From Allacma fusca (lineage: Eukaryota > Arthropoda > Collembola > Symphypleona > Sminthuridae): 64,000 bases of DNA. The notes beneath the pieces are model-generated. The model had not been told where the DNA came from. It made no database searches and was given only the letters and a program-made list of their open reading frames with translations. Position numbers and translations under genes: made by a program. Shown in pieces: positions 17,812 through 41,220 of the stretch. Position 1 is the stretch's first letter. Each line of letters starts with the position of its first letter. Location of the stretch: assembly GCA_947179485.1 (NCBI GenBank), contig OX359247.1, positions 57,075,131 through 57,139,130 on the forward strand, in the 5' to 3' direction.

Positions 17812-17817
17812 GTTATC

Positions 17818-17870
17818 AGTAGGCGATATAGTATGGGTGGACCCATTGTTAAATGACCACTGGACATTTC
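17818..17870 (+). repeat. Polinton left terminal inverted repeat, outer part
   Basis: Matches the reverse complement of the right end with two or three differences over about 57 bp, and runs directly into the 51-bp array. The inner part of this TIR (two units resembling the right end) is displaced to about 21926-22010 by array expansion. Confidence 0.92.
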
Positions 17871-20800
17871 CCTATGTATAAGGCATAGGGAAGCCCTTCA
17901 CTTTTTCCCAGTGGACATTTCCCTATGTATAAGGCATAGGGAAGACCTTCACTTTTTCCCAGTGGACAATTCCCTATGTATAAGGCATAGGGAAGCCCTT
18001 CACTTTTTCCCAGTGGACATTTCCCTATGTATAAGGCATAGAGAAGCCCTTCACTTTTTCCCAGTGGACATTTCCCTATGTATATGGCATAGGGAAGCCC
18101 TTCACTTTTTCCCAGTGGACATTTCCCTATGTATAAGGCATAGGGAAGCCCTTCACTTTTTCCCAGTGGATATTTCCCTATGTATAAGGCACAGGGAAGC
18201 CCCTCACGTTTTCCCAGTGGACATTTCCCTATGTATAAGGAATAGGGAAGCCCTTCACTTTTTCCCAGTGGACATTTCCCTATGTATAAGGCATAGGGAA
18301 GCCCTTCACTTTTTCCCAGAGGACATTTCCCTATGTATAAGGCATGGGGAAGCCCTTCACGTTTTCCCAGTGGACATTTCCCTATGTATAAGGCATAGGG
18401 AAGCCCTTCACGTTTTCCCAGTGGACATTTCCCTATGTATAAGGCATAGGGAAGCCCTTCACTTTTTCCCAGTGGACATTTCCCTATGTCTAAGGCATAT
18501 GAAAGCCCTTCACTTTTTCCCAGTGGACATTTCCCTATGTATAAGGCATATGGAAGCCCTTCACGTTTTCCCAGTGGACATTTCCCTATGTATAAGGCAT
18601 TGGGAAACACTTCACGTTTTCCCAGTGGACATTTCCGTATGTATAAGGCATAGGGAAGCCCTTCACTTTTTCCCAGTGGACATTTCTCTATGTATAAGGC
18701 ATAGGGAAGCCCTTCACTTTTTCCCAGTGAACATTTCCCTATGTATGAAGCCCTTCTCTTTTTCCCAGTGGACATTTCCAGGGATGGGAAATTTACACAA
18801 ACGACCTGCTGGATTGGATTAAGGGATTGAGAGAAAAAATGCCGATTACTTGGATTGGAGTAAGGGATTGAGAGAAAAAATGCCGATTACTTGGATTGGA
18901 TTAAGGGATTGAGAGAAAAAATGCCGATTACTTGGATTGGATTAAGGGATTGAGAGAAAAAATGCCGATTACTTGGATTGGATTAACGGATTGAATGACA
19001 AAATTCCGATCACTTGGATTGGATTAACGGATTAAAGTAAGAAACTCCGATCACTTGGATTGGATTAAGGGATTGAGGGAAAAAAATGCGATCACTTGGA
19101 TTGGATTAACGGATTAAAGTAAAAAATTCCGATAACTTGAATTGGATTAATGGATTGACGGGGAAATAGTTGATGAATGAAATTTCGCAGATTTACATTG
19201 GATTTCCAATAAAGATGCAGATATTAAGGAATGATGAGGAAAATCAAAAATTAAATGGAATAGCACATAGACCAATTTAATTCTTATATAAGTCCGATTA
19301 ACGGGTCAACATTTGTTAATACATACTTAGATGGTTTGTGCTATTGGCCACCATAAATTCAGTAATTCAGATTGGGATAATGCGATGACGTGAATATCCT
19401 AATAGTTGGTTAAAATTACAAAGGTCGGTAATATTTATTCGCTTCACATTTTTTGCTCGGGATTTGTTTGAGCCCAACTGTGCTGCTAATTTCCATGCGG
19501 GCTATAATACTAGTAATCAAAATATGCACATATTTGAGGCAAGCGTAAAGAGAATTTGTTACTCCCTGACAAGTAAAAACGCTTGAGGCTTCTACTGCGT
19601 TCCCACGTTGTTTGCTAAGATTTATATTTATGCAAACCATAACGACATGATTCCTGTTTGAAAACATCCTTGGAATTGTGACATGTGAACACAGGCTACA
19701 AGTTCATTACAAAGCCGCTAGATGTTGAAAAATGTAGCAATGAAATAGAAGTAGATATAATCCAATCCACACTACTGACAGCAGTGGATTTTGGGATTAG
19801 GGTTGACCAAATAATTCATTAAGTATTGGATTAGGATTGGGGATTAAATCGTTGCCATACAAATAATTGGATTTAACTAGTCGATTAAAATGAAAGCATT
19901 GAGCCGGGATTGAGGATTAAGGATTAGATCCAAGTTTCCCCAACACTTGGATTGGGATTGGGATTAATTATTTCATATAAATTTTGTAATCCGGGATTAA
20001 TTTAATCCCGGATTAATAATCCATTCCCATCCCTGGACATTTCCCTATGTATAAGGCATATGGAAGCCCTTCTTTTTTTCCCAGTGGACATTTCCCTATG
20101 TATAAGGCATAGGGAAGCCCTTCACTTTTTCCCAGTGGACATTTCCCTATGTATAAGGCATAGGGAAGCCCTTCACTTTTTCCCAGTGGACATTTCCCTA
20201 TGTATAAGGCATATGGAAGCCCTTCACTTTTTCCCAGTGGACATTTCCCTATGTATAAGGCATTGGGAAGCTCTTCACGTTTTCCCAGTGGACATTTCCC
20301 TATGAATAAGGCATAGGGAAGCCCTTCACTTTTTCCCAGTGGACATTTCGCTATGAATAAGGCATTGGGAAGCCCTTCACTTTTTCCCAGTGGACATTTC
20401 CCTATGTATAAGGCATAGGGAAGCCCTTCACGTTTTCCCAGTGGACATTCCCTATGTATAAGGCATATGGAAGCCCTTCACTTTTTCCCAGTGGACATTT
20501 CCCTATGTATAAGGCATAGGGAAGACCTTCACTTTTTCCCAGTAAACACTTCCCTATGTATGAAGCCCTTCTCTTTTTCCCAGTGGACATTTCCCTGTGT
20601 ATAAGGCATATGGAAGCCCTTCACTTTTTCCCAGTGGACATTTCCCTATGTATAAGGCATAGAGAAGCCCTTCACTTTTTTCCAGTGGACCTTTCCCTAT
20701 GTATATGGCATAGGGAAGCCCTTCACGTTTTCCCAGTGGACATTTCCCTATGTATAAGGCATAGGGAAGCCCTTCACTTTTTCCCAGTGGACATTTCCCT

Positions 20801-22010
20801 ATGTATAAGGCACAGGGAAGCCCCTCACGTTTTCCCAGTGGACATTTTCCTATGTATAAGGAATAGGGAAGCCCTTCACTTTTTCCCAGTGGACATTCCC
20901 TATGTATAAGGCATATGGAAGCCCTTCTTTTTTTCCCAGTGGACATTTCCCTATGTATAAGGCATAGGGAAGACCTTCACTTTTTCCCAGTGAACATTTC
21001 CCTATGTATGAAGCCCTTCTCTTTTTCCCAGTGGACATTTCCCTATGTATAAGGCATATGGAAGCCCTTCACTTTTTCCCAGTGGACATTGCCTTATGTA
21101 TAAGGCATTGGGATACACTTCACCTTTTCCCAGTGGACATTTCCGTATGTATAAGGCATAGGGAAGCCCTTCACTTTTTCCCAGTGGACATTTCCCTATG
21201 TATAAGGCACAGGGAAGCCCCTCACGTTTTCCCAGTGGACATTTCCCTATGTATAAGGAATAGGGAAGCCCTTCACTTTTTCCTAGTGGACATTTCCCTA
21301 TGTATAAGGCATAGGGAAGCCCTTCACCTTTTCCCAGTGGACATTCCCTATGTATAAGGCATATGGAAACCCTTCACTTTTTCCCAGTGGACATTTCGCT
21401 ATGTATAAGGCATAGGGAAGACCTTCACTTTTTCCCAGTGAACATTTCCCTATGTATGAAGCCCTTCTCTTTTTCCCAGTGGACATTTCCCTATGTATAA
21501 GGCATATGGAAGCCCTTCATTTTTTCCCAGTGGACATTGCCTTATGTATAAGGCATTGGGAAACACTTCACCTTTTCCCAGTGGACATTTCCGTATGTAT
21601 AAGGCATAGGGAAGCCCTTCACCTTTTCCCAGTGGACATTCCCTATGTATAAGGCATATGGAAGCCCTTCACTTTTTCCCAGTGGACATTTCGCTATGTA
21701 TAAGGCATAGGGAAGACCTTCACTTTTTCCCAGTGAACATTTCCCTATGTATGAAGCCCTTCTCTTTTTCCCAGTGGACATTTCCCTATGTATAAGGCAT
21801 ATGGAAGCCCTTCATTTTTTCCCAGTGGACATTGCCTTATGTATAAGGCATTGGGAAACACTTCACCTTTTCCCAGTGGACATTTCCGTATGTATAAGGC
21901 ATAGGGAAGCCTTTCACTTTTTCCCAGTGGACATTTCCCAATGCGTAAGGCATAGGGACACCCTTTACTTTTATCCAGTGGACATTTACATATGTATAAA
22001 GCATATGAGT
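17851..22010. repeat. 51-bp minisatellite inside the Polinton left TIR, about 57 units
   Basis: The unit is 51 bp, built around cagtggacatttccctatg and taaggcatagggaagccc, in two blocks (17851-18778 and 20036-22010) split by a hAT-like insertion. A variant block with a shortened unit (gtatgaagcccttctc) and a 1-bp-deleted unit recurs every 448 bp (20556, 21004, 21452) and then after 295 bp (21747). 448 and 295 equal nine and six units minus 11 bp. Because 51 is divisible by 3, long stop-free frames appear on both strands (17-residue repeats). These follow from the repeat and are not evidence of a gene. The right Polinton end has only about two units. Confidence 0.95.
18779..20035. mobile_element. 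hAT-like non-autonomous element, family F (ggattggatt repeats), inside the satellite
   Basis: Termini CAGGGATGGGAAA and, inverted, CATTCCCATCCCTG. Exact 8-bp target duplications gacatttc (part of the 51-bp unit) lie at 18771-18778 and 20036-20043. The left side has tandem units of about 47 bp containing acttggattggattaaggg (about eight, 18815-19160). The right side has inverted and direct ggattaat motifs. No transposase is present. Confidence 0.93.
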
Positions 22011-22503
22011 GCATATCTCTTTCATGGACATTTCGAGTAAACAATGTACACACTGATATTACAATTATAGCGGCTGCATATTTAGAGGATAAAGCATGCA
22101 TCAAGCAATGCCACACCCAGTGGCAGAGTAGTTTTCAAAAAAATTATAAACGGCGAAGAGTTCAATCCAGGTCACACCCATCAATAATATATGCATGTAT
22201 GATTTGTTTACAGGTTATGATCACCCCATCCAGTAAGGTAAGAATAAAAATCAAAAATAGTTTGTTTCCCCCTATATATGGGGTTTGTTTTGCTACTGCA
22301 GACTATCATTTCTTCCATATTCAGTCCTAGCAGTGCAAGTCAAAGCAACTATCCAATTTCATTTCAATATTTTTTGAAAATATTTTTCGAAAAAAATGGA
22401 CCTCGTTTTGAGTGTAACTCAAAATTTTGATTTTCTCAAAATTTCCGAAGCGTGAAGGAAATCATTGCGGAAAAATCCGAAGCATTCTGGAGATTTAAAG
22501 CAA
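22011..22503. other. Spacer between the left array and the first Polinton gene
   Basis: No gene recognised. It probably contains promoter sequence for the rightward capsid-side genes. The last satellite-like unit fades out near 22030. Confidence 0.5.
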
Positions 22504-23180
22504 TGCTGTACTTCTTCACATTAAACGTAGCCAAAATTATGGTGAATCACAGCTGTGGGACCAGTTCACACCCGGCTAAAAATTCAATGGACATCCTATG
22601 CCACTGCCCGGAACTTCAATACCTTAGAAGTGAATGGGAGAAGATTTGCTCTAGAATGGAAGATGCGATGTCACATAAACAGCCGGAAACCAGATTTAAA
22701 GAATACTCGGTCATACCAAAAATACACCCTGACATTGATGAGGGGGTCGGATCAAAAATGATTATTAAACACCCGGAATTTCTGGATTCTGTCAAACGCT
22801 TCAACACCTATTCATCACGTAAATTTCTAAACGCTACACATGAGTTATTGGCAGAACGATATTACTTCATGCAACCAAACAGGGTAGTGAGGTGTGTCTA
22901 CTGTGATGCGGAGATAGCCGTAGACTCATTCCACGAATTTAAATATAGACCGGGATGGAAAAGAGATTGTGCGCTCTATGCGGGGCATTGGAATGGTCAT
23001 ATAGATAGTGATAACTATAAAGGGTGGTCTGGAGAATGTCGACCAAAATTGAAACGAAGGAGTGCAAAATCAATAATTTATGAACGATCTGATCTTAGCA
23101 AACGGTCCAATTTAGAAGAGGAGGACATACTTGGTTTAGAGTACTTGAATAAAATTATCAAAAAGAGACGTATTTATTAA
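22504..23180 (+). CDS. Polinton accessory protein with a BIR-like (IAP-type) zinc motif
   Basis: Open for 225 codons from ATG 22504; an open stretch continues upstream to 22452 without ATG, so the start is uncertain. In the middle, RFNTYSSRKF is followed by LLAERYYFMQPNRVVRC and CVYC. This matches the first half of a baculovirus IAP repeat (Arg, Thr/Ser, LA...Y, then VxCxxC). The usual His-x6-Cys second half is not clearly kept; DCALYAGH offers Cys and His as alternative ligands. The C-terminus is Lys/Arg-rich and ends KKRRIY. BIR domains bind caspases or other partners in IAPs; a role in host-death control is inference only. It is one of the few intact frames in the element. Confidence 0.55.
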
Positions 23181-23300
23181 ATATGTTGTAAATATGTTTT
23201 TAAATACTTTGTTATGATAAAATCAATGAGTCATGTTTATCTATATAAAATTGAGTATCCAGTATTACATTTACTCATTCATATTTTGGAATTCATCATG

Positions 23301-24539
23301 GCAGGTTTCACTGTTACTCTTCTCAGTGATGCATCTAATAATTTTTATCCCGAAAACACAATAACTAATTTTAGAAATAAGTTAGCAACTCGTATTGACT
23401 TGGATACACGGGACGTTGAAGTCGCTCTAACTACATGCACATACACATCAACGAATGTTTTCGTTTGTGAGGGCGAAGAAATTGGAATAGCGAGTATTAC
23501 GTCAAAATCGGTCGTGTTCTTGTCTGTTAATTTACTAATTCTTAGTAATGACCATTGGATAGAAGGCAATTCTTTAAAATGCAAGATGTTCGCACCACAC
23601 AATTTTTCTGATCAAATAGATTTTTGTCAATACATTCCAAAAGTTACAAGGGATGTTTATGAAATCAACCAGAGGTCATATGTAGAGATTACAAAAGAAG
23701 CTGGCAATACAAAACTCACATATTCATTTGAATTGTCAGAGCGACTCAAGAAAGTATTTGGAATACTTGAAGGCTTTGCGGAAACACAGAAGGTGCCAAA
23801 ATTAGTAATATCAAATACAAGGGCAGAAGCTTTAGTAGGTTTTGATACTATTAACACAACATATGGGCATATTTGGGAAGAAAACGTCGATGGAAATAAT
23901 GGAGACTGTTCACCAAAAAAAGCAACTACAAAAATAATCATGAGTGATACAAAGATGCACTTAAAGAATTACTTTGATAAGGGTGAAATAATTGCAACAT
24001 CTCAAGATAATCCAAATATTTTCATATCCGCGGAGAGAGACATCACATCATTTGAAGATTTCATGGAGATTCTCAGTTTAGAAATGGATATTGAGTGGTT
24101 TATCGTGAAAGGAAAAATGTATGTTATTTCTCATGAAAATTCAAAGTTTAATGATTTTGATCTCTCACGATCTGCGAGGTATTATTTGGGATTTTTGACT
24201 GCGCAAGCCCCAGCACCATCTGCAATAGTCTTTGAGAAACAACGAGCTCGTCACAAGCTGTATAAGGGATTTGGGGATGATCTTTTATTCGTGTACTGTG
24301 ATATTGTCGAAAATCAATTCGTAGGGGACTCGTATGCACCTTTGATGCGATGTATGCCTTAAACGTACAATAATGGTAAATCCTATGAACATGAATTTTA
24401 CAATCCAACATATCTACCTTCGAAATCCAACTCATTTGACAGTGTTCACGAGTTTATAATGAATGAATCTGGGAAACCACCACCATTCGAATTTGGGGAC
24501 TTCAAGTGTACACTACACTTTCGTGAGCGGAGATATTAA
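23301..24539 (+). pseudogene. Polinton conserved virion-type protein, probable minor capsid/penton-like
   Basis: From ATG 23301 (a longer open frame begins at 23214) the product starts MAGFTVTLLSDASNNFYP, the opening seen in a conserved Polinton structural protein (YP-ENT then FRNKLATRIDL). Near the end, LLFVYCDIVENQFVGDSYAPL and a terminal CTLHFRERRY block are also typical of that family. A TAA at 24360-24362 interrupts it; the same frame continues to TAA 24537-24539, so a single nonsense change truncates about 60 residues. No frameshift is seen. It stands directly before the core-like gene and the major capsid gene. I recognise the family from conserved start and end blocks; the exact virion role is inference. 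Confidence 0.65.
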
Positions 24540-24558
24540 ATAAACATACACGATTAGA

Positions 24559-25117
24559 ATGACTAACACGTTTCAGTGTTCCGATATGGAGAGCAAGTTT
24601 TACAGAATTCATTCTCCTCAATATGGACAAGGTATTCAATATGGTGGTGGAGGAATTTTATTTTATAGGGGGTCTCAAGTTCGTCAAAAAGGTGCTGGAC
24701 TGGGCTCCTTCTTTGCTTCAATTGCTCGAAGGCTTATACCCTTCGCTTCTAAATACCTTCTCCCCCATGCTAAATCAGCCTTAAAAAATGTTGCACTTGA
24801 TGTATTGGAGGGCGGTCGCCCCCTTAGCGAGTCCCTTAAGGATCGTGGTCTTGATGCTCTTAAAGCAGTTGGTCAGGATGTAATGTCTCAGTCTGGTTCT
24901 GGATTTGGAAGAAAACGTAAGGCGGAAGATCAAGGTGGTAACCTTTACCCATATAAGAAAATCAAACGTGCACCTAAAATTGGACGAGGGAAGAAAAAAG
25001 GCAGCTAAGAAACGAGGAAAGAAAAACGGACGTGGAATACTGAAGCTGAATATTTCCAAGAAGACTAAGAAGAGTGCTCCAAAAAGAAAAAAAGGAAATT
25101 CTAGAAATATTTTTTCA
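24559..25117 (+). pseudogene. Polinton basic core/pVI-like protein
   Basis: The frame 24559-25008 encodes a Gly-rich start (GQGIQYGGGG), then GAGLGSFFASIARRLIPFA, an amphipathic helix block, then LEGGRPLSESLKDRG and a strongly basic tail (GFGRKRK, KKIKRAPK). Polintons typically encode such a small protein beside the capsid gene; it recalls adenovirus pVI/core proteins that bind hexon and membranes or DNA. A very Lys-rich stretch continues in another frame to about 25117, so a frameshift near 24990 probably cut off the basic C-terminus. The next gene starts three bases later (25120), consistent with a compact capsid block. Confidence 0.6.
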
Positions 25118-25119
25118 TA

Positions 25120-26439
25120 ATGGCCGGGCATCATTTTTTAAGGAGCGAATTTGATATTTTTAAGCGTGAAGGTTATGATATGTCAATTCAAACAACTCAA
25201 ACATGTGATGTATTCCCAAATTGTCCTTTATCTGAGACTGCTGTGCCATTAACATTCAATGTTAATAGTACAGAGGCCCATTATACTGACCTAATCAAGA
25301 CTCGTCTGTATTTACGCATGAGAATTTTAGATTCTGATGGTAATGCCAATGCTGACAATATAGTTGTTGCTCCAGTCAACAATATTTTACACTCTGTATT
25401 TTCGCAATGTTCAGTGTATTTAAATGAAACATTGATATCCCCAACAAATACTTATTATCCATTTTGATCAATAATTGAGCGCATGTTACTCTTTTCTAAG
25501 GAGTAAAATGAGACTCAATCACAATGTGTGGGTTATTTCAAAGATAATAACACTCCAAATGTTGATGCTAATGTGACGTCATCCTATTATCAACGATGAA
25601 CATTGAGTCGGGGTAGTAAAGTTTTCGAGGTAATAGGAAGACCCCATGCAGACATTTTCTGCCAGCCGGACATCCTACCACCGGGAGTACACCTTAAAGT
25701 AGTATTTCATCGTTCCACAGAAGACTTTTCTGTCCATACTGATTTAGCACTTGTTAACCAACCGCATTATAAATTGCAAATAGTGGAGGCTAAGCTACAA
25801 ATTCTCAGGCATAAAGTCATCCCAGCTGCTGCTCTGAATCATATTCGATTATGGGAGGCTGGAAATGTGGCGAATCTATATTTAAACAAGGTTGATATCA
25901 AGAGCTTTTCATAACCAATTGGGACATTGACACGGATAGAGGAGGATGTATTCAAGGGTGGGCAACTTCCTGATCGATTGGTACTTGCAATTGTACCGAG
26001 TACAAACTTAAATGGAACTTGTACGAGTAATACTTTTGTATTTAGCGACTTTGGACCTACCCACATTAATGTTTCTGTTAATGGAGACACTTGCGAGTCT
26101 TATCCGTTAGATGTCGACTTTCAAGAAAACAGTCTACGTGTACAAGAAGCCCTAAGTAATGTCTATAGAGCTATTGGGATTGACAATAAGGACGCTAGCA
26201 TCGATTACAGTCTTTCCGACTTTTTGAATAACAAGAATCTCTTTGCCTACAAAATCTCACCAATTGTTGATGCCAGATCCGTACCTCGTTTTGGAAATTT
26301 GAAAATTGAACTTCGTTTTCGAGGTGCAACAGCCATACCATTGAGTGTACTCTGTTACACAGAATCCCAAGCTATCTTGAACATTGACAAGAATAAATCT
26401 GTATTCTACACTGATTACACTCAGCAGAATCAGCAATAA
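25120..26439 (+). pseudogene. Polinton major capsid protein (double jelly-roll), four nonsense codons
   Basis: A single reading frame runs 25120-26439 (440 codons with the stop) with no frameshift, but with in-frame stops at 25465-25467 (TGA), 25504-25506 (TAA), 25597-25599 (TGA) and 25912-25914 (TAA). Conserved Polinton capsid blocks are seen: starts MAGHHFLRSEFDIF; VAPVNNILHSVFSQ and VYLNETLISPTNTYYP in the first jelly roll; VIGRPHADIFCQPD; and KGGQLPDRLVLAIVPS in the second. Length is slightly short of the usual Polinton capsid. At least two stops could derive from CGA by one C-to-T change. It follows the core-like gene and precedes the protease, the usual morphogenetic order. Confidence 0.88.
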
Positions 26440-26492
26440 ATACAACTCAAGTTTATAATTATTTACATGTTATATGCAAGCCTAGACGGGCA

Positions 26493-26960
26493 ATGTTTGA
26501 TGTAGTGTCATGTGATGAATTGAAATATGTAAAATTGAATAAGTTTCCATTATGTCTTGTTGTAAATTCAGATCCCAGCACAAAGCCTGGGAATCATTGG
26601 GTAGCTATTTATATAGATAATAAGTCTAGCTTCTTAGAATTTTATGATTCATATGGTTTTGGTACAGATTACTATTCTGATGAATTCAATGTGTTTGAAA
26701 AGAGATGTAAACTTAGAATAAGAGAGAATACAAAGCAGTTGCAAAATTGGGGTTCAACGGTTTGTGGAAGTTATGCATTATATATTTTGTATAAGAGACT
26801 CAGACGTTGCTCCCCCATGAACTTGTACTGCTCATTTTCAAATGACTTAGTTCGTAATGACAAATATGTTTTAATGTTTATTCATTATAAAACATATTTA
26901 TTAAAATCGAATTGTTGTAATAAGAATGTTCATCAATCGGTTACAGAGTTTGCAAAATAA
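26493..26960 (+). CDS. Adenovirus-like maturation cysteine protease of the Polinton
   Basis: 155 codons. The catalytic layout of the adenain (C5) family is visible: His in GNHWVAIYI, the acidic residue in LEFYDSYGFG, and the nucleophile in STVCGSYALYIL with a Gln (LQNW) before it. In adenoviruses and Polintons this enzyme trims capsid and core precursors. The frame is open upstream of ATG 26493 to about 26460, and family members usually have a few more N-terminal residues, so the start may be displaced or the N-terminus damaged. All expected active-site residues are present, making this one of the better preserved genes. It lies 53 bp after the capsid frame. Confidence 0.85.
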   Translation: MFDVVSCDELKYVKLNKFPLCLVVNSDPSTKPGNHWVAIYIDNKSSFLEFYDSYGFGTDYYSDEFNVFEKRCKLRIRENTKQLQNWGSTVCGSYALYILYKRLRRCSPMNLYCSFSNDLVRNDKYVLMFIHYKTYLLKSNCCNKNVHQSVTEFAK

Positions 26961-26970
26961 AAATATAAAA

Positions 26971-28078
26971 CTAAGACTTATTCCATCGTATAACAATTTT
27001 CTTTTTACATCCACTTCCATGTTGTCCATTTTTCCCACCACACCTAATGCATAATGTCTTAGAAATCTTTTTACGTTTTGATTTCGGTCTTACGGAATCA
27101 TTTTTTCATCATCACCATAGCAGGTTTTACGCTTGGTTGGATTCATTATTTTTTCAGTTTTAATCTTCTTTTCAGTAAGTATATACCGTTTTAATTTGTT
27201 TGGCTTGGTTGGTTTAACAGGTGGGGGTAATCCTCAACGACATCGTTATTAATATTTTGAGTGTCAGGTAATGGGTCTGAAAACTTTGTAAATAATCGCC
27301 TCTTGGGTAAAGTTGATGCATCAAAAGTATAATTTTAATAAAATTTTCGTTTAGTCGCGGGAATTCTTCTTGTATCGATATTGTTTTGAATGAATGGAGA
27401 CGGTTCTGAAAACTTTGAAAATAATCGTCTCTTGGGTATAGGTGATTCATCGAAATTGTAATCTTCATAAAATTTCCGCTTTCTCGGTGGAATTCTTGTT
27501 GTATCGATATTGTTTCGAATAAATGATGATGGATCCAAACATTTTGTAACTAAACGCCTTTTGGGGATATATGATTCATCAAAAGTATAATCTTCATAAA
27601 ATTTCCTTTTGGTGGGAGGATTTAATTTATTTGAAATATTTATGCTGTCTGGCCAATGATCTGCAACCTTTAGAACTATTTGTCGATTGTGTATTTCTTC
27701 AAAATCATAATCACAATTATCTTCATGATCATCAAAATCGTAATCATCGTAAATTTTTCGTTTGAGAGGTCTTCTAGTTGCATGGGTTTGATTGATTAGT
27801 TGGCGGGCAGTTCGATTATTTTCTTTATTTGAACTATACTGCTGGGAATTTTGAGGCTTGGACTGTTCATGAATCATTTTTACGAGAAGTGGTTTGTTAT
27901 CTTCATACTGTTTCTTTTGTCTCAGTGATCTAGCATGTTCACAATATAAAACTTGTTTCACATCATCAGGTAATTTTGTAGAGTCCAACATATTTGAAGA
28001 AGATGCTCCATGAGAATTAGCCTCAGACATCATTAGATTATAATGTGCCTCTTGTACTAATTTCATGCGTCGCGCCAT
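26971..28078 (-). pseudogene. Polinton protein with tandem KRKFYEDY repeats and a C-terminal CCHC knuckle
   Basis: The frame starts MARRMKLVQEAHYNLMM, a beginning seen in a small Polinton protein near the mu-like gene. After a polar, Gln/Asn-rich region come tandem units of about 48 residues containing KRKFYEDY, FDES.IPKRRL and an Asn-Asn-Ile-Asp-Thr block. Two full units and parts of two more are visible; the DNA repeat (about 145 bp) spans 27295-27625. The first frame stops at 27335. The continuation in other frames reaches 26971 and includes CIRCGGKNGQHGSGC, a C-x2-C-x6-H-x3-C zinc knuckle, so at least two frameshifts are present. The zinc knuckle suggests nucleic-acid binding (inference). 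Confidence 0.6.
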
Positions 28079-28079
28079 C

Positions 28080-28340: not shown

Positions 28341-28742
28341 ACATTTCCTGGATTTGCATTTATGAAAAAGACTTTATTATCAATTAATGTCTTCATTTTG
28401 AAAAGTAGATGTTGGACACATGAATGCAACTTTGTCAATGATGAATATAAGTTAGTGCATTTGCATTTATTATTTATTTGATTTCTTGCTCACTGTCATG
28501 GCTGAGGCTAAAATTAAACGTCTGTATTTGAATCCCAAATTTAGAGGGGGTTTTCAGGACTTAATACTTTTATGAAACACTATAAGGGTGGAGAATGTAG
28601 ATCCACAATTGAAAAAGTTCTTCAGTCTATTCCTACATATGCTGATAATAAACCAGCTATACAGACGTTTAAGAGACGGAGTGTATATGTACATGGGATG
28701 GATGAGCAGTGGGTAATAGACTTGATTGAAATCTCCCGATAT

Positions 28743-29993: not shown

Positions 29994-30523
29994 CCCGATA
30001 TGCAAAACACAACAATAACTACAGATATATGCTTAGTATTATTGATGTCCTTAGTAAATATGCATTTGTAAAGCCTTTAAAGTAAAAAAAAGTGCAGATG
30101 TACTGAAGGTGTTTCAAAACGTTTTAAAGTCCTCTGGTAGAATTCCTCAACGAATTCAATGCGATAAAGGAACCGAATTTAAAAAGGAATTCCAAGAATT
30201 TTGTGTGGAGAAAGGAATTGGAATTTTCCATGTTCAATCAGAGCTTAAGGCATGTATCGCCGAACGATTTAATAGAACTATTATGGAAAAAATAAGTAGA
30301 TATGTCCAACATAAGTGTAGTTACAAGTTTATACATGTTTTACCTAAGTTGGTTCAAAATTACAATATTACAATACATTCAAGTACTAAGTTTGCCCAAG
30401 TTTCAGAAAATTCGACAAGACCATGGACATTGAAATCAAACAATGCATTAATGCTGTGGAAGGTAATTCGAACGCTGAAACTACATCTATTGGAGGATCT
30501 TATAGTGGGTATCTTTGGATAAC

Positions 30524-30907: not shown

Positions 30908-31365
30908 ATCTAAAAACGTTTGTGTAAAAAGTATAAATAAATATTACATTCACTTTTACAAGTATAAGTGCTGCTCCTCTCTATTCATCATGAACCATTC
31001 TTCGATATTCTCTCATCAACTTGTTTTCATAAATACATTTATGGACATTCGAATTGTACTCCCAATTTTCCTCTTCTTTCTGAGAATTTCAATTAATACA
31101 CTGCTATATTTATTCCTTCATAAACATTGTGCATTCGTAACCCTAGACGTTGGAAATAATGGCTCAGGCTCCGCTAGATAAACAGTGGAAATGGATTCAA
31201 CCATTAGTGGTAAGAATAAGTCATTGCTTCCCCGCAGGCGATTACGGCGGCGCGCGCGCACGTAGCTGTAACGGTTTGGCCGTAAAAAGGGAGGGGGCGC
31301 AGCAAGTCCCAAACCTTATTACATATCTGTCCCTTCCTTCGCCCTTGCGTAGAAACATAATATGA
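30908..31365. other. Gap with a short GC-rich patch
   Basis: AT-rich sequence with a short frame from ATG 31159 (MAQAPLDKQWKWIQPLV) and an unusually GC-rich patch at about 31232-31300 containing ggcggcgcgcgcgcacg. No family recognised. The patch stands out from the AT-rich surroundings. Confidence 0.45.
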
Positions 31366-31950
31366 TTGAGAAGAAATTATCTACTTTTGGTTTTTTCAAT
31401 AGCAGTTGTAGCTAATGTGATTCGTGAGGAAACTTTCATTGATGTGTGTGGTACTTGGGATTGGCTTAAAGTTACACCAATGAACTTTAAGCCATCATAT
31501 TCCCCATCATCGTCGTCTACAGGATCAACGCCTGAAATATCCACTGATGAATCAACCAAGCCAATGATTGATCCAAGAGTGAATAAACGAAAGGCGACTA
31601 CACCTCTCAAAGTTGCGGGTATGCTACAATCAGCAAAGGGTCGTGCAAAGTTGGAAAAACTTACTGTCAAACAGAAGAGGAAGGATAAACATGGTGGTGG
31701 TGTGATTAAAAGACTGTACCCAGTCTTTACTGACCCTGTTGACTCTTATTGTACATTGTGCAAAGACACTTTGGATGCATAACAGATGGAGCGGAATAGG
31801 ACTGTATTTGTCTCCATTGATCGGGTATGCGGTGAATGCGATGAACGACAGTTCACACTCATTCAGGATGGGAATAAGATTTGTATGCGATTTATTGACT
31901 TTGAATTTATCAGTCGGTATTACAAGAATTATTTTAATATGAATATTTAA
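31366..31950 (+). pseudogene. Polinton zinc-ribbon-like protein, one in-frame stop
   Basis: The frame 31366-31782 is Ser/Pro-rich (PSYSPSSSSTGSTPEIS), then basic (VNKRKATTPLK, KLTVKQKRKDKHGGG), then CTLCKDTLDA and TAA. The same frame continues without shift to TAA near 31948 and contains VCGECDERQFTL. The two CxxC pairs separated by about 25 residues resemble a zinc ribbon, a fold common in transcription or nucleic-acid-binding proteins. The start may lie further upstream. No named family is recognised; the nonsense codon lies between the two zinc halves. Confidence 0.45.
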
Positions 31951-32022
31951 TTTTATTTATTTGGATTAATAAAAATAACACAATCATTAACCCACAATAC
32001 ATTGTTTCTGAGTCTATATTTA

Positions 32023-32660
32023 TCATCCTGGGTCTGGCTGCAATAAATCATAAGGTATCCATGGGGTATGGATATTACACTGTTTATATGCCTCCTCTGT
32101 GAGTGGGTACTTCTTACCACAGTTCATCTGGCATCCAATCCGGTTAACTACTTGGGCCTCCCTCGGGTTTTTAAACAGACAAATGTACTTGGCATTAGTA
32201 GTTAGTGGATGCAGCCCATCATGGAAAAGGTTTTGAGTTATGAATATGATGGAGCAATTTCTATTGTGACTCCCTCTAACAAATGCCTGCAGAACTTCTT
32301 TAGACTTTGAAGCCTCCTCCATCAAATCGTCCAAAATGTACAAGTATGGATTAAGAAGATCGTCTCCGTACTCTGTGGGGAGTCCTTCATGGAATTGTAT
32401 TTCAGGGAATTCTTTTTTCATGGATGCAAATACATGGGATTGATTTATCCCATAGCAGTATACCACATACTTTACATTGGAAAATATGATTTCATTTCTG
32501 CGGGCTATTATTAGTAAGGACTGATTTCCCTGACATTGTGGGTACAGAAATAATAAAATTAAAAGGTGCATGAAGAGAGTAGTCAAATACAGGTGCATCC
32601 ACGATGAAGTATGATTTCAGAATAATACGAGAAATGAAGTAAGGTTGCTTATTTGTTTGG
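32023..32660 (-). pseudogene. Polinton FtsK/HerA-type genome-packaging ATPase
   Basis: The long frame ends at 32023 and contains a Walker B region, LNPYLYILDDLMEEAS, then the sensor-like SIIFITQNLFHDG and LFKNPREAQVVNRIG, all typical of Polinton A32-like packaging ATPases. The Walker A loop (VPTMSGKS) is present but lies in a different frame, at about 32540-32565, so one frameshift separates the nucleotide-binding loop from the rest. The N-terminal ~40 residues of the annotated long frame are therefore out of register. These ATPases drive genome entry into preformed capsids. It is convergent with the rightward genes and upstream of the polymerase terminus. Confidence 0.8.
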
Positions 32661-32777
32661 AAGTATTTTTTGACATTTTTCTAGGAATTATTATTATTTT
32701 TTTAACATAAATAACCAATTACGTACATGGTTAATTTATACAATGACATACAATTTATACGTACAGATATACATATA
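32661..32777. other. Short AT-rich spacer
   Basis: AT-rich, no coding signal. It separates the ATPase from the polymerase C-terminus. Confidence 0.5.
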
Positions 32778-35700
32778 TTACACCGGTCTTTGCATGTCAT
32801 CATCAGCAATTCTTAAAAATTCATCTAAATTATTAACATCCGGAATTTTCTTATTCCCATAGGCTAAACTAGAGTTATAATCTATATGAAATCTTTTATT
32901 ATCAAAAGCTGTCAACCTTCTCTTTGTTTCTTCTGTGTTATAAATTCTATGTCCTACAGCGGCTATTTTTCTAAAATTAACCACAGTTCTTGAACCTAGT
33001 GTTTTGAGAATTCTATCATAATCTTCAAATTTCTGATGTCTTTTTACAAAGGACTTTGGAATACCCTTAGCTTTTTTGTCAACTATTCCATCCTGAGATA
33101 TGTATGTATACATTTTAGCTTTTAAAAATATCATGGACTTTATGGGATGACATGCAGATACATCTTTCATTAACCCTCTCACTTTTTTATTTTCGTCTTT
33201 AAAATATGGTGCCCATTCGGGGTCTACTCGAGGTACTACATTAGAGGGTTAAAAATTAGAAAGGTTAAATAACTCATGATTTTCACGCATATCCCTGTAT
33301 GCATCTAACTTATGATTGTCACTCTCAATGTGTACCATAAGACTATCAGCGTCAGTGCCTATTAGTTTGAGCTCACAGCCAGTATTACTATTATACAAGG
33401 TTTTAAGATACCCATAGTAAAAATCATACATTACATTTTTACTAATATCAAGACATGATATTCCTGTATATATGGGCTTATTCAAGTATGCATTAGTTTC
33501 CTCATAATGAACAAAGCTACATCTAGGTTTACCAGTACAATATCCTTCAAAGTTGCCTTTTTTTGCAAAATTATTTGCACGATCAGAAAATATGCAATTG
33601 CTAATACGATTTTGTGTTAACAAATGAATTCGAGATCTATCTCTAACCTGTTCTAAGCTCTTGCCAAATACGACATTTATTAATAGCTTACAGAAATCCT
33701 TCTCAAATTCTGTAGTAGCTAATCTTCTCTGATCTGTGCACAAGTCTATATACACTTTAAGCCAAGCCGATTGTTTAAATCATAAAATTCTATGGACCTT
33801 GTCTAATTTCATTCCTATGCGCAAATATGTTTTTAGAGTAGCATAGTGCACGACATATTTTATTTTCTTATTTAGATCTGTGACTAGCTTACTATTTTTA
33901 AGAGCTCCTTCCGAAACTTTATATTTTTCCTTCATCTCCCATTGGTATGATGACATTTCATCAACTTTAACAGCTCGTTTTTCAGGTGCGAAGGGTAATC
34001 ATTAAAATAGTCATGCAAGCTCTCATCTACACTAAGATCAACCTCAAACAAATACCCTTCTACACCATCATTAGGCAAATTCATATTTGTTTCATGAGAG
34101 AGATACACAACCTCTCCATCTGACAACCATTTAAAACCACCTGTAGAGAGATGAGAGTCCATTGCCTTTGCGTATAATGCATTTGCATCCCAGTACATTA
34201 TGTATGAACATTTTTGGGATTGGTCATAGCTATCCTTCATATATTTATTGTTAGCATCTGCACACCGTATGGACCCCGTACCTGCATAGCCTCCTCGAAT
34301 ACCGGCTTCTAAAAATGCATGGGTGTCATTATCCCTAATGTATTCTAAGTTAACCTTACTAAAATTTAAAGCAGCCTGCCATGTTATCATAGGTTAACTC
34401 AAAAATCTTGCAGGGTCCAGTTGGAATTTTTTTTGAAAAGATCGCGGAAATTTTGAAACACGTCGGCAAGTAAAGAAACATCTAACTGACAATAAAAATT
34501 GCAATATTCTCCCATTGTCTAAATGCTAAATTTTTCCCAAATAAGGTTTGCATGCTCATAGTCTCCTGGAGTAATATGCTCATCTTTTAATTTTGAATAG
34601 AATGCATCAATAGGTGGTAATTCCTGTTTCTGTAAATCACTATATAACTTAATAGCTTCATAAGGAAAACCTCCTTTCCTAAATAAAAGACCCTGTTGCT
34701 CAACTGCCTCGGGAAAATTTTCTGTAAATACCTCTTTAGTTACCCTGAATTTTTCTTCTCCTTCAACCCCTAATATTTCTGTCAATTATCCAGAGAGGAA
34801 TTTAAAAATCGTAGACTGTCAATGACTGTCAATGTATTATTAATCTTAACAGACATAAACTTTTCAGTGCTCAGAGGAACTACAGAGATCCTCAATTAAT
34901 TCATGGTTTAAATTATAGACTATACGATGGCTGTCATATCCACTAAAATTATGTACTACGACTGGTATTTTGGAACACCAGCCAGCCCTAATGTTACAGG
35001 AGTTATGTGTTTGTCCTATGTACATATATGTATAATGATCATGATGCTCTACAGGCGTCCAACCATCTTTCCACTGGGGATCAATGTCCTCATTACAGAA
35101 AAAACAAATCCGATTGACGAATTGATTTATTTCAGCCATTTTCTCAGCACTTGGATATATGCGATTCCGCTTAGCCTGCTCTTGCCTATCCTTTATCTTT
35201 TGACTAAGTGCTTGGGAAAAGGGAATTATATCTCTGAAGAAAGTATCCATGAGATTCTCACCATCTGATTGAATATGGTGAGTACTCTTATGTTCTACTT
35301 TGCCATATGGATCTATACAAATGTATGAATAACTACAGGGAATGTGCTCATGTGTGTACTGCTTACTCCCTCCTGACTTTGAAAGTCTAAATTGGAATTC
35401 ATGAAGATCATGCACCTTTGAAAATCTGTCAATTGGGAGCTGCCCATCAACCTGTACTTTAGGAACTAATTTGGACTCGAAATCTAAATAAATTATGAAA
35501 GGAGCTGGAACCATAAAACTATAAGAATTAAATTTAATCGAAGCTTCAGGACTCTCTACAAAACTTGATTTCTATGCACCTATTTCGACACATCTTTCTA
35601 AATGTCTCTGTAAAGTTTCTTTTGAAACACACATGTGCAATCAATATCTACATAAATACTGCCTGTTTTGACTAGCGGGATTATTAAATAATTGTTGAAT

Positions 35701-37336
35701 ATCGGTGCAAAGGACAAAGTGCTCAGTGGAAGGATCGTCGACTCTAGGCAATATACACTTATTAGAATCAACAATATTTTCTACCTTCTCTGCTGAATTA
35801 TAAGAATTAAGTCTAGTTCATAGTGTACATATTTTTTTATACGTGGTCTGCTAGTCTTCGTGGTATCATTAGTTTCAGCTGGTGCTTTACCCTGAGGCCT
35901 GCTTTTGCTAATGTACAACGGAAAACTATGTTTTTGTAATAATTTTCTCCGTTTCTGTACTAACTGTTTTCCTTTTAATTTCTCTAATAATGGATGACTA
36001 CTGGTAATCCCTGTATCATCAAACCCAAATACATTTACTGAAATATTTGGGTTAAGCTTTTTGAACAATGGAAGTTGTTCAACTGTCATAGGCATGTGGA
36101 TGCAATCTAGCTTAAACTGTTGAATTACTTCTCTATATGTTTTCATTTCTTCTAACTTATATTTGGAAGACTTAATACCTGCAGCTACATCAAATAAAAA
36201 GCATGCATTTAAATCACTATCATTTTTAAACAATGCCTGTCTTTCAGTAAGCACCTCCGAATTATATGCTTCCTGACTATTATCAACATTTATGATTAGA
36301 AACTTTTCTCGACAAGCAAGCAAGTATGGTAATGGTAAATAGGAACCCCCACGAAGTGGTTGGTATTTCATTATTATCATATCTAAAATAGGAATGTCAC
36401 ACAATGCAAGCCCCGAACCATTTTGACAGTACTCGTCAATCATGTTAACTAATTTTTCTACTATGATATTAAGAGTAAATTCTATCGACTCTCTGTTTAT
36501 AATAGTATGCGCAAATGAAGACATCCACTTGTTAAAACGTGACATGCACTCGGGTTCTAATCTTTAAAATATGCAGTGTAAATGAATAATTGTTTTTTAT
36601 ATTTCTAAAATCATCCATGTCTGAATTGGTTTGTTGCATAAGTTGTGACTTTATGCATTCAAAAAAACCTCTGAGGTCGCCAGCCTGTGCAATGTTATCT
36701 ATGTCTATTCGATATGACCTTAATGCATCAGTGAATGCAGCATGAGAGGGGTACAGTGTAAATGTATTATTTATTGATGCCTCAGCACCATCACCAATTT
36801 GAACATTATGAACAAGTGCATTATGAGTGTTAAAATCTAACTGCCTTCTAAATCTCATATTACATAACGTACAAAATAAACTATCTTTATCAATTAGATC
36901 TCTATGACATTGAGCTATATGTATATCAATTTCTTCCTATTAACAAATTCTAAGTTACATAAACTACACCGGTTGTGTCTGTAACAACCATTAATGAAAT
37001 TATACGTACCTCTATTATGATCCATTTGATGACTTGGACCAGCAATTTCATTATCACTATTAACACTGTTGACATCTTCGTGGCTATCGATGTCTTGAGT
37101 ATCGCGATTTTCAATAGGTACATTGCCATCCACAACTGCATCCGGGGTGATCAAGTTGAAGTCCAAATCTAATTTCGAATTCCTCTCCAGGTTGCAAGTT
37201 GTGAATCCACCGTTGAGCACCAGTGTTTTCAGGTTGAGCATGCACATCACTATTTCTCCTGGTAGCCAGGCGCTCAGCAACTTCGTTGGACATACACTGG
37301 TCACATGGGGCAAACCAAGTACATACAGACCCACCA

Positions 37337-38210
37337 CAGTGAATTTCCCATATAGTGGTTTCCTCTTAGATGGCATTCCCTCTTTAATGGCATCAAAAAA
37401 CCCTCCCTAGAGATTTGTAATGTTAAAGGTATACTGTATAGTGGCACCCGCTATAATGGTATTCCCTCTATAATGTCACTATTATGTGTTACGGTGGCTC
37501 AGACGATGCGAAATTATAATGGCAGTTGGCATTAATTAGCTAGATGATGGCTACAAAAGTATAACATGATGTTATAAAACGTGCGGGCGGTTAATAATGC
37601 TTATGTCGGTTGGTTCAATTTTAATTTGAAATGTTAATATAGTTTGATTATTATTGTGGTTTACTGAAGCCCTGGTATGATTAGCTGGATTTACGTCATA
37701 TGATCCGTGACTGAAGTTAAAACGAACAGTTATAACACAAATCATTGCCATTTTTGCCTTGGCTCACTTCTAATAAGTTTCAATTCTAGCTGATTTTTTA
37801 AAATAAATTGAATTATTATATTGAAGATTTAAAATGACATTAAACAGACTGTCAAGCCAAACCTCATAGGGAAAAAAACCACAGAGTAATCAGTGAAAGT
37901 AATTCCCATTTCCATAATTCCAGGAATTTGGTTTCTGGAATGGTGACCTTGCAGTCGAAAAGTTTGTCACGACTAAAATTATTAAAAGTATGAGGAAATC
38001 TAAAATTACTGAACATCTTAAACTCAATGAAGCTTAGCATACCTCATAATTTTGAGTATTCTGTAAACATAAATTTTATGTATTTAGTTACAGTGATTGT
38101 CTATAAACATTAATAGTATATAGCTAACCGTTAGTAACATACAGTGGCATCCCTATATAGTGGCAGGGATTTGTCACTCCCTTGGAAACCACTATATAGG
38201 AAATTCACTG
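37337..38210. mobile_element. pogo/Tc1-like non-autonomous element in the polymerase gene
   Basis: Ends CAGTGAATTTCCCATATAG and, inverted, ctatataggaaattcactg. TA follows the right end and CA precedes the left (TA target with one change). The arms continue with tatagtggtttcc / ggaaaccactata and internal tatagtggca motifs. Length is 874 bp, with no transposase. Terminal motifs resemble those of 9529-12347 (CAGTRAA... tatatagtgg). Confidence 0.78.
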
Positions 38211-38282
38211 TATCACAATCCGGACGAAATCGTGCAATTGGATGTTCAATGGGTTCACCTTGAGAGTTAACAATGGGTAATC

Positions 38283-39970
38283 ATTTAGGAATGAATTATG
38301 CGCTCCCCCCTAACAAGCACATTTTAAAGAATATAAGATTGAAATTCATAGCCACAATGGAATCTCATCTCAAAAATGAAAACATTCCAGAAATTGAAAA
38401 AGAAATCATACGACGCAATATAACCAAAATAGTACAAGATGGACAGTTAATTAAACCTAATAATGAAATCATCAGAATACTTAAGAATTTACAGAAAAAT
38501 GAAAACATCTTAATAATGAAAGTAGACAAAGGTAATGCCACTGTCATAATGAATAAATTAGATTACCACCAAAAAATTATTCAGCTCATTCAAGATGGCC
38601 CATATTCCAAATTATCTAATGATCCCACTGAAACCAATTTAAGTACTTTGAAACAAAAATGCAAGGAATTACTTAATACCAGAAGAATAACCAAGGAACT
38701 TTACAACAGCATTATTACAAATCAACCCAGGATTTCAAAATTTTTTGGTCTTCCAAAAATTCATAAAGACAACACACCATTCCGACCAATCAATGACTAT
38801 AGAGGATCAGTTAACTACAAACTAGCCAGAATATTTAACAGATTAATTTCTCTAACGAATCAATATCCACAAACAACGGTAAGGAATTCTTTCGAATTAA
38901 TGGATATCAAAATTCCTCCGGAATCCATTCTCGTATCTTTTGATGTAAAAAGCTTATATACAAATTTACCATTAACTGAAAGTATCCAAGCAGTAGAAGA
39001 AAGACTAAAAACATCTTCGGATTGGAAAATTCAAGAATTTGAGCTACTTACAATTGAAGACATTATATCTCTCTTGAGAATCTGTCTCAATAATACTTAT
39101 TTCCAATATAACCATGAAATCTACTCACAAGACGATGGCTGTCCAATGGGATCACCTATTTCAGGAACAATTGCTGACATATTTTTACAAAAACTAGAAA
39201 CTGATGTAGTGGTAAATAACTCCAAAATCTTATTCTGGAAACGGTATGTTGACGACGTAATTGCTATTGTTGATAAGTCCAACAAGAATGAAATTCTTAA
39301 CTATTTAAACTCATTTCATCCACAAATCCAATTTACAATTGAAGAAGAGCAGCATAACGAGATTCCTTTCTTAGATGTTCTTATAATGCGCAATGCAGAT
39401 GGCAACATTGAAACCAAAGTCTACAGAAAGAATACACACACAGATAGATATCTAAATTTTAAATCTTTTTATCACACCTCCCAAAAAATTTCAGTCGTAG
39501 ATGCTTTAGTTCACAGAGCTTTTAAAATCTGCCACCCAAAATATTTGGAAGCTGAATTATTACACATCAGAAAAGTACTTACAAGAAATGCATACCCGAT
39601 AAAATTCATAGAAAAAAGAATCAACCGAATGAGAAACAAGTTACATCCGAGGAGAACAATAGTCGCACAAGCAACAATGATAAAAAATCATACAACACCT
39701 GTATCTGCACCAGACACATCAATTTTGCTCTCATCAATCATAGAAACAGAAAACAAGATTGAACCATGGATTCCAATTCCATACATAGGCAATATTTCTA
39801 ATAGGATCGCAGGATACTTGCGAAGAGTCTTGAAATGGAAACCTACTTTCTTACCGGGTATAAAAATCCAAAACTTAATGAAAAGTTTAAAAGATGGAGA
39901 AAATTCTGAGAATGCTGGAGTATACATCATACCTTGTAATACTTGCAATTCAATATGGGGAAACCTATAG
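38283..39970 (+). pseudogene. PLE reverse transcriptase with start of GIY-YIG domain
   Basis: Over 560 codons open. Motifs in order: MKVDKGNATVIM, FFGLPKIHKDNTPFRPI, SFDVKSLYTNLPL (catalytic Asp), DGCPMGSPISGTIADIFLQ, WKRYVDDVIAI (YVDD catalytic pair), EIPFLDVLIMR. This is the telomerase-related RT of Penelope-like elements. The endonuclease opens with AGVYIIPCNTC, but a frameshift near 39957 diverts the frame to a stop at 39970; GETYRHLNTRVQEHKDNV continues in another frame to 40106. The ATG at 38273 lies in the host duplication, so it is not the real start; the N-terminus is truncated. RT motifs are intact and look young. Confidence 0.9.
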
Positions 39971-40106
39971 GCACCTAAACACAAGAGTACAAGAACATAA
40001 AGATAATGTCAGAAGAAAAGAATATAAAAAATCAGCTATTGCAAGACACATAATAAGAAACAGAAGTCATCATATTACATGCAAAGATTGTTGTTCCCGA
40101 CCATAA
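39894..40106 (+). pseudogene. PLE GIY-YIG endonuclease, frameshifted C-terminal part
   Basis: The useful part is from about 39957: GETYRHLNTRVQEHKDNV, then KKSAIARHIIRNRSHHI, matching the Arg/Glu-containing core after the second YIG strand in PLE endonucleases. The upstream ~20 codons of this frame are out of register. The nicking domain is therefore disconnected from the RT. Confidence 0.75.
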
Positions 40107-40369
40107 TCATTTCCTACGACAAATAAAGGAAGGTTTAGTTATCCAATAATCAAAACAGTCATTGATGAACGTCAACCAAGGTTTTATTTTAAGCAACGCA
40201 TGGAAGCCAATAATCCCGAATTTTATAGATTGATCTTGTTTTTTAATTTAAATTGTTGAAAAAATAATTATTTTTTGCAAAATATTCACAACTCAATAAT
40301 TTTAAATTAGAACAATGTAAATTTTTTATAAATACTACATCAAACATGGATAGCATAGTTAGTCATAAT

Positions 40370-40432
40370 TAAGCCCTGAAGATGAACACTGTTTGAGTTC
40401 GAAAGCTTGGCAAATAAATTGATTCTAAGCAA
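40370..40432 (+). ncRNA. Candidate hammerhead ribozyme of the PLE
   Basis: CTGAAGA (40376-40382, matching CUGANGA), a stem-loop gaac...gttc, then GAAA (40401-40404) followed by gctt...aagc. This is the core order of small type I hammerheads known from Penelope-like elements, at the expected 3' position. The cleavage-site UH and stem I were not verified. Confidence 0.45.
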
Positions 40433-40559
40433 TATCCACGTATTCCAATTATTTCAACATGGTTGATATTAATGGGTAATCGATCACTGCCAGTCACATA
40501 GTCATGCATTGGGGAAGGCACTGCACAATTAGCACATAAGTTTCTGGTAAAACATTCCG

Positions 40560-40815
40560 GGTTATCACAATGGGGTACAACAGGCTCCATGATCACTGGT
40601 TCCACAATATTAGGGTCAGCAGGGACAGGCTCCGAGATGATTGGCTCTATAAGAACAGGCTCCGTGATGATTGGCCCCATAGGAACAGGCTCCGGGATGA
40701 TTGGCATCTCAGCAACAGGCTCCGTGATGATTGGCATCTCAGCAACATGCTCCGGGATGATTGGCATCTCAGCAACAGGCTCCGTGATGATTGGCATCTC
40801 AGCAACAGGCTCATT
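40560..40815 (-). repeat. 30-bp coding repeats in the polymerase N-terminus
   Basis: About eight tandem units; the repeat aggctccgtgatgattgg followed by catctcagcaac on the plus strand reads EPVAEMPII(T/P) on the minus strand. Units degenerate to the left. The length is a multiple of three, so frame is preserved. Confidence 0.85.
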
Positions 40816-40866
40816 GGATGAGTTGATGTTAGGGGCAAGGTTGTCCATATCCACGGCAGCAAACAT

Positions 40867-41097
40867 CTCGTCGTCATTGTCATTTGCTCCGCGGCTGGGC
40901 GCTAATACCCGGCTTATTTAATATTTTCTGAACCGCCCTGACCTGGGGAATCTGAATCTGCATTCGGATTTGGTGAATTCCCCCCAGGTTGGGAATTAGA
41001 TTCAATGTTTCCACAAAAAAATGCATTCTATGATTATGCACATGCATTGGCAGTTGGGTTTGCCTTTAACCATATTGAAATAGGTAAAGTGAGAGGC
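40867..41097. other. Right-end spacer of the Polinton
   Basis: Non-coding. It probably contains the promoter of the leftward polymerase gene. Nothing more specific was seen. Confidence 0.45.
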
Positions 41098-41220
41098 CCT
41101 ATGCTTTATGCATGTGGAAATGTCCACTGGATAAAAGTGAAGGGCGGCCATATGCCCTACGCATGGGGAAATGTCCAGTGGACATTTCACAATGGGTCCA
41201 CCCATACTATATCGCCTACT
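41098..41220 (-). repeat. Polinton right terminal inverted repeat
   Basis: Inverse of the left end: 32 exact terminal bases, then about two 51-bp-type units (cttcacttttatccagtgg on the minus strand). These two units match the innermost two of the left array (21926-22010) better than its bulk. The 6-bp target duplication follows at 41221-41226. Confidence 0.9.

Follow-up and report, generated by a model that had tools for sequence, protein, structure and literature searches.

At one locus in the genome of the collembolan Allacma fusca, the two ends of a single transposable element are very unequal, which raises the question of how a terminal repeat can grow into a long array at one end only. 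The window analysed here (64,000 nucleotides; assembly GCA_947179485.1, contig OX359247.1, positions 57,075,131 to 57,139,130) holds a Polinton-type element at 17818-41220, whose left end carries 57 full copies of a 51-bp unit, whereas its right end carries one full and one partial copy. To our knowledge, the cis-acting signals of Polintons have been little studied. In this study, short and mostly left-biased runs of the same unit were found in related elements throughout the host genome, so that the window copy appears to be the extreme of a common end design.

The array lies between the outer and inner parts of the left end

The two ends of the element share 32 exact inverted bases, from 17818 at the left and from 41220 at the right, and approximately 1e-10 such pairs would be expected by chance in 64 kb with equal base frequencies. 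The left array spans 17858-22032 and comprises 57 full 51-bp units and one unit that is split by a 1257-bp insert. Without the insert, the array is approximately 2.9 kb long. Five of the 57 full units are of a shorter deletion type. Each of the 55 bulk units differs from the reference unit used as ruler at 0-7 substituted positions, and these units have 18 singleton variants altogether. The small number of singletons and the higher-order periods of approximately six and nine units fit block-wise exchange.

Additionally, the two innermost left units are variants with counterparts at the right end. The first right unit matches the left unit at 21925 best, with a score of 37 (next 33, median 29). 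The second right unit again matches that unit best; the left unit at 21976 ties for third with a score of 20 (median 18.5) and has diagnostic bases in common with this second right unit. The bulk units sit between the outer terminus and the right-matched inner units. These results agree with the preliminary description of the locus, made from the sequence alone, on the 32 inverted bases, the flanks gttatc/gttatt (five of six positions agree), the approximately 57 copies over approximately 2.9 kb, the roughly two right-end units, the asymmetry of the ends and the place of the bulk units between the outer and inner terminal inverted repeat (TIR). Its statement that the innermost two left units match the right-end units better than the bulk holds for the first right unit but only partly for the second.

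Related elements share the end plan and mostly the left bias

The pattern of AGTAGG, 18-40 bases and GAAATGTCCACTGG occurs at 43 ends in the host genome, while the reversed control gives none. This set contains the right end of the window element; the left end falls outside it because its palindrome has two substitutions. Of these 43 ends, 39 distinct ones were decomposed into units, three were set aside in this step as their first 400 bases repeat another end, and the right end of the window was analysed on its own; run lengths and pairs were then taken from all 43. With the outer end and one unit as query, at least 131 matches were obtained in the genome (best 40 of 51 candidates scored), and with two bulk units at least 96 (best 40 of 50 candidates scored). 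The only long array among the matches listed is that of the window, and the short runs elsewhere sit at Polinton-type ends. Among the 37 other loci of the bulk-unit search, 33 have the exact end pattern, two have an AGTAGG-type end and two have a decayed end. No unit array away from Polinton ends was found among these best 40 candidates, nor was the end displaced in other copies. Collectively, the ends of this clade follow one plan, with an AGTAGG terminus of approximately 32 bp, the palindrome GAAATGTCCAcTGGACATTTC and then units of approximately 51 bp (iterons), of which the left end mostly has approximately 2-6 and the right end 1-3.

Eleven pairs of ends face each other within 30 kb, with the window pair excluded since its left end is decayed, and 10 of them have perfect 6-bp flanks. 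The right end was defined as the one close to where polymerase B starts, and the number of units is the aligned span divided by 51. Eight of these 10 elements are left-heavy, two have equal ends and none is right-heavy. The left-heavy elements span 3.4-5.5 units at the left and 1.2-2.7 at the right (n = 8, Table 1), their sides being fixed by the position of the polymerase piece in a search that scored the best 150 of 505 candidates. At least one unit is kept at every right end examined. The longest other end, at C5:1225094 and without a side call, has 8.8 units. Moreover, at left ends of the window family (for example L009, L014 and L016), units of the bulk type separate the palindrome from the inner units, and only inner-type units occur at the four right ends examined (the window, L010, L012 and one end of L013). 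The eleventh pair, L013 (C1:58185567-58187271), is 1.7 kb long, has flanks that agree at four of six positions and joins a left-type end of 4.9 units to a right-type end of 1.7 units; it is perhaps a recombinant between copies.

The left bias in eight of the 10 other elements indicates that the left-biased repeat is a trait of the clade. A repeat peculiar to this element is not supported: the unit occurs across the clade with mostly the same bias, which led us to reject the one-off reading, and only the size of the array is unusual here.

Two recent subfamilies keep a fixed run length

In the first recent subfamily, a 219-bp run occurs at all three ends, with three different flanks. Similarly, in the second, a 235-bp run occurs at six of six ends with six different flanks. 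Such constancy at different sites argues against slippage as a routine event of protein-primed replication. The cycle of the element thus mostly keeps the number of units, with at least one change of approximately one unit in a third subfamily, described below.

Origin and constraint of the unit

No run of 51-bp units was found at the ends of one element each of the more distant 62% and 57% polymerase groups (both ends) and of the likewise more distant 56% group (right end only). These elements have the box CCCCATG..G.AGGTATAGG.GACCTT in a single copy per end, at approximately nucleotide 38. The left end of the 56% element was not located, and a search for ends in shorter flanks found none there. 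In the 74% group, one element (about C1:29409431-29425926) combines an exact inverted repeat of 67 bp with a palindrome of its own and, by eye, looser CCTTTCACTTTT-type repeats. The terminal repeat of this group holds the long palindrome GAATTGTCCCATGCTctttAGCATGGGACAATTC (L077 around 2932, L073 around 4427).

When a right-end unit (L067) was compared with the boxes of the 62%, 57% and 56% groups, scores at least as high were obtained in 3, 0 and 2 of 1000 shuffles, respectively, figures that flatter the match because the shuffles keep single-base content only and the segments were picked after inspection. From this resemblance, we infer that the 51-bp unit probably is the single end box, duplicated in tandem in this clade. 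At its right end, the 56% element also has the ACAAGTGCAG motif several times (L086 around 2900-3300) and, nearby, 2.4 copies of a 97-bp repeat, so that the clade with the 51-bp unit is not the only one in this genome to have tandem repeats close to Polinton ends. In flanks of a 56% group Polinton, tandem repeats with 97-bp and 24/207-bp units were observed at L080 1-234 and L081 1110-1990.

Change along the unit is uneven among 104 distinct units from outside the window. The least-changing stretches are TGGACATTTCC (85-100% per column) and CTTCAC (94-99%), and several spacer columns change often. A hairpin within the unit (TTCCCTATG...CATAGGGAA) was rejected as a conserved structure, as just 41%, 37% and 63% of the 104 units form its pairs 15/29, 10/34 and 14/30, respectively; its three loop-side pairs form in 90-97%, and the full hairpin is striking in the window unit. 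Exact patterns of the unit and the terminus gave no matches in viral contigs.

A young insert interrupts the array

The insert at 18779-20035 is presumably hAT-like, judging by its 12-bp inverted ends and 8-bp duplication. It has two genomic siblings with 100% identity (rounded) over 451 bases and is thus a young copy that inserted recently. Some of the array predates the insert, and most of it probably does. Within the insert, a 41-bp tandem repeat occupies 18810-19158.

The window element is an old, broken Polinton

Its ends, flanks and polymerase place 17818-41220 among the Polinton-type elements, as the preliminary description had stated, and it is old and its genes are broken pieces (Table 1). 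The ends read AGTAGG...CCTACT, of the AG...CT form, and the 6-bp target-site duplication, 5/6 identical here, is 6/6 identical in all but one of the 11 other facing pairs, the remaining pair having 4/6. A DNA polymerase B of the protein-primed type is indicated through a relative: the predicted piece at 33249-33755 is 80% identical to the element at C8:13753608, where the polymerase sits within a 1670-aa frame that matched DNA_pol_B_2 in a profile search of the genome. Alone, this piece matched no Pfam family; an 823-aa piece of the intact relative's polymerase frame also matched none, although the genome search with DNA_pol_B_2 matched that relative. The element resembles Polinton/Maverick elements in its AG...CT ends, 6-bp flanking duplications and polymerase B piece, and its weak integrase and protease matches, which lie under the curated cut-offs, would fit as well.

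The piece at 25927-26439, which we take to be a capsid candidate, gave no significant match in Pfam, a homologue search or the PDB. The piece at 32023-32598, labelled a packaging ATPase by eye, had no Pfam match, and no homologues were found for the piece at 34864-35514. In viral contigs, eight stretches fitted a pattern from the polymerase B piece and none was confirmed. Inside the Polinton, on the forward strand at 38273-39970, a 565-aa reverse transcriptase frame (RVT_1, E 3.5e-10) presumably belongs to a nested Penelope-like element. Elsewhere in the genome, at least 82 DNA_pol_B_2 matches lie above the cut-off (best 91 of 424 candidates scored; for example C5:4795910 and C1:16252676). Many are in open frames of equal length, 1511 or 1520 aa, which look like recent Polinton bursts.

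Table 1. Features of the window element (window positions) and numbers of units in the eight left-heavy related elements (contig positions)
Feature	Position	Strand	Remarks
Left flanking duplication GTTATC	17812..17817		Right copy GTTATT differs at 1/6
Left outer TIR, 32 exact bases	17818..17849	+	Starts AGTAGGCG; reverse complement ends at 41220
Left junction palindrome, decayed GAAATGTCCAcTGGACATTTC	17850..17870		Two substitutions; first part exact at 43 other ends, including the window's right end
Array, first part	17858..18778	+	18 full units and left part of split unit
Nested hAT-like insert, 1257 bp	18779..20035		12-bp exact inverted ends CAGGGATGGGAA; 8-bp duplication GACATTTC
Array, second part	20036..21924	+	Rest of split unit and 37 full units; higher-order periods of approximately 6 and 9 units
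Innermost units (two variant, one partial)	21925..22032	+	Counterparts of right-end units
Adenovirus-type protease piece	26493..26960	+	Peptidase_C5, E 3.3e-4; 20.8 bits, just under the curated cut-off of 21.3
Integrase piece	30109..30522	+	rve, E 0.0023, under the curated cut-off
DNA polymerase B region	32778..36545	-	Separate broken pieces; search ties only 33249-33755 to polymerase B, neighbours by position and by eye
Right-end units	41090 (about)..41180	-	One full, one partial
Right junction palindrome GAAATGTCCAcTGGACATTTC	41168..41188		Intact
Right outer TIR	41189..41220	-	
Right flanking duplication GTTATT	41221..41226		Left copy GTTATC
Left/right units	C1:70893001		3.4 / 2.7
Left/right units	C8:60272933		4.2 / 1.7
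Left/right units	C8:13742576		4.3 / 1.4
Left/right units	C1:45194191		4.3 / 1.4
Left/right units	C1:33534700		4.6 / 1.4
Left/right units	C1:57832454		4.6 / 1.4
Left/right units	C1:61359427		5.5 / 1.2
Left/right units	C8:1229395		4.5 / 1.2

Explanations for the array

Taken as a whole, a shared end plan with a tandemly duplicated box as putative end site, followed by growth to 57 units at this locus, is the likely explanation. An ancestral single end box would have been duplicated in tandem within the clade to give a run of iterons of approximately 51 bp. The iteron may be a protein-binding site at the ends of the element, most likely auxiliary for end recognition or the start of replication. 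At the window locus, the number of units would have risen to 57 as it does in other minisatellites, mainly by chromosomal slippage or unequal exchange of multi-unit blocks; the hAT-like insertion into the array is recent. This locus is the most likely place of origin of the 57-unit state, since the genes are broken, the size of the array is unmatched and unit numbers are mostly stable elsewhere. A related possibility, which we regard as tentative, is that the iterated ancestral box forms a polar cis-element of the left end, so that each end would play its own part in replication or packaging, somewhat as with the left-end domain of adenovirus, and the 57-unit copy would be a natural over-amplification.

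Several points weigh against the shared plan with local growth. The array could have grown before the Polinton inserted, and its length is the assembled length. The left-heavy elements share ancestry and so are not independent events, and the two remaining elements have equal ends: C1:46691068-46711949 with 3.0/3.0 units, whose 47%-identical polymerase match has stops inside, and C1:69820711-69836548 with 2.0/2.0 units and no polymerase match among the best 150 of 505 candidates. In the weakest of the 20 unit-box comparisons, the score was reached by 51 (bulk unit against the 57% box), 96 (bulk unit against the 56% box) and 71 (window right unit against g74R) of 1000 shuffles. The uneven change along the unit is significant by per-column counts in the 104 units (dispersion 4.0 relative to Poisson over 51 columns, chi-square p 5e-20), a test that overstates certainty because the units share ancestry and gene conversion is ignored. 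Moreover, low-change columns cluster into runs only weakly: at three thresholds, 4011, 7461 and 771 of 20000 permutations were clustered as strongly. Finally, runs in the third subfamily vary (280, 280, 280, 282, 283 and 331 bp). Two of the 280-bp ends have a common flank and are thus probably one duplicated stretch, and the 331-bp end is approximately one unit longer than its 280-283-bp sisters. As a separate observation, the two elements with equal ends have an inner flank in common that is unlike the other left or right flanks.

Expansion during protein-primed replication of the element, before the window copy inserted, would place the array where it is found, between the outer and inner end sequences and near the expected start of replication, and the longer end of the third subfamily is in line with it. 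However, run length is constant at 3/3 and 6/6 ends in the two recent subfamilies, no other examined locus exceeds approximately nine units, and jump-back in protein priming handles only a few nucleotides. We regard this expansion as unlikely, and the slippage during protein-primed replication proposed in the preliminary description is unsupported by the runs, one longer end of the third subfamily notwithstanding. By analogy with adenovirus, the left iterons could also be a packaging domain that gives packaging its polarity. Several similar, left-biased copies lie within a few hundred bases of the end, and the adenovirus domain, 220-400 nt from the left end, consists of seven A-repeats that are functionally redundant (PMC5033970). 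In contrast, two other groups have a related box once at each end, the ends of two elements are equal, and the repeats are not restricted to the left end as in adenovirus: the bias holds for eight of 10 other elements, yet units occur at every right end examined, and the one or two that remain there better fit an end-recognition site. A packaging domain is rather unlikely. A box that stands at both ends in outgroups and was multiplied mainly at the left fits a role in end recognition or replication start first and a packaging domain second.

Another possibility is that the array is a host satellite, which the Polinton acquired or into which it landed; in size and purity, the unit is typical of a minisatellite. 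Elsewhere, the unit lies inside Polinton-type termini, on their inner side (33 of the 37 other loci of the bulk-unit search with the exact end, the other four AGTAGG-type or decayed), and a host-satellite origin was rejected on this ground as extremely improbable. Long tandem arrays are often misassembled, but the units here are distinguishable by many variants and a clean insert with its own duplication interrupts the array, which makes an assembly error in the array length very improbable.

Comparison with known systems

The Polinton-like Tlr elements of Tetrahymena carry 19-mer tandem repeats in long inverted repeats, a feature for which the papers searched gave no confirmation. Vertebrate Mavericks have TIRs of 46-1447 bp (PMC8097293). 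In the accessible parts of mainly open-access literature, the original Polinton papers aside, no description of left-biased tandem units in Polinton ends was found (PMC8097293, PMC12220804, PMC6431247, PMC8547959, PMC3573991, PMC8504770, PMC4028283, PMC12628747), and none of Polinton cis-acting signals was met there. An expansion of Polinton inverted repeats is stated as reported before in the available text of PMC3573991, which cites another source, so that some change in TIR length was apparently already known.

The foldback transposon Tetris of Drosophila virilis is a close parallel for TIR repeats that grow into long arrays. Its TIR-220 tandem units vary in number within the inverted repeat, with allelic copies of three and four units and up to 66 in long arrays, for which unequal crossing-over was proposed, and the unit has a stretch in common with the outer end (PMC4079207). 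In contrast to the window element, Tetris is not a Polinton, its units are 220 bp long, and its long arrays occur in many contigs rather than in one place (PMC4079207). As expected for a TIR-derived minisatellite of the Tetris type, short TIR runs occur in relatives here together with one long array. In Galileo subfamily F, internal TIR tandem repeats likewise differ in number between the ends of one copy, and such repeats have been discussed as secondary transposase binding sites; Galileo belongs to the P-element superfamily and has up to three copies of approximately 210 bp (PMC3573991). The adenovirus packaging domain is similar in that redundant repeats lie close to the left terminus of a genome whose ends carry terminal protein, and it is active near the right end too, provided that the inverted terminal repeat is no more than 600 bp away; its motif is unrelated, and its function was shown for adenovirus, whereas for Polinton iterons it is conjecture (PMC5033970).

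The conserved, mostly left-biased iterons beside the palindrome are a concrete candidate for a Polinton cis-acting signal, in a host genome where Polintons with long open polymerase frames are also numerous. Furthermore, ends that range from a single box to 57 units suggest a route by which a minisatellite can arise from the end of a transposon.

Other observations

Five near-full-length COX1 matches were found in the genome, at C12:58139742, C5:4638854, C12:57617062, C8:22971501 and C91:3428. Each has 11-13 internal TGA codons and no other stops, and four lie on large contigs. These matches are perhaps recent nuclear insertions of mitochondrial DNA, and C91 may be the mitochondrion itself. 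In the window, a similar set of short tandem repeats occurs in three places (4141-5133, 10069-11085 and 48372-49388), probably as copies of one repeat. Additionally, in line with Allacma fusca or a near relative as the most likely host, a serine carboxypeptidase piece at 12443-13003 has a 99% match to an Allacma protein over 55% of the query.

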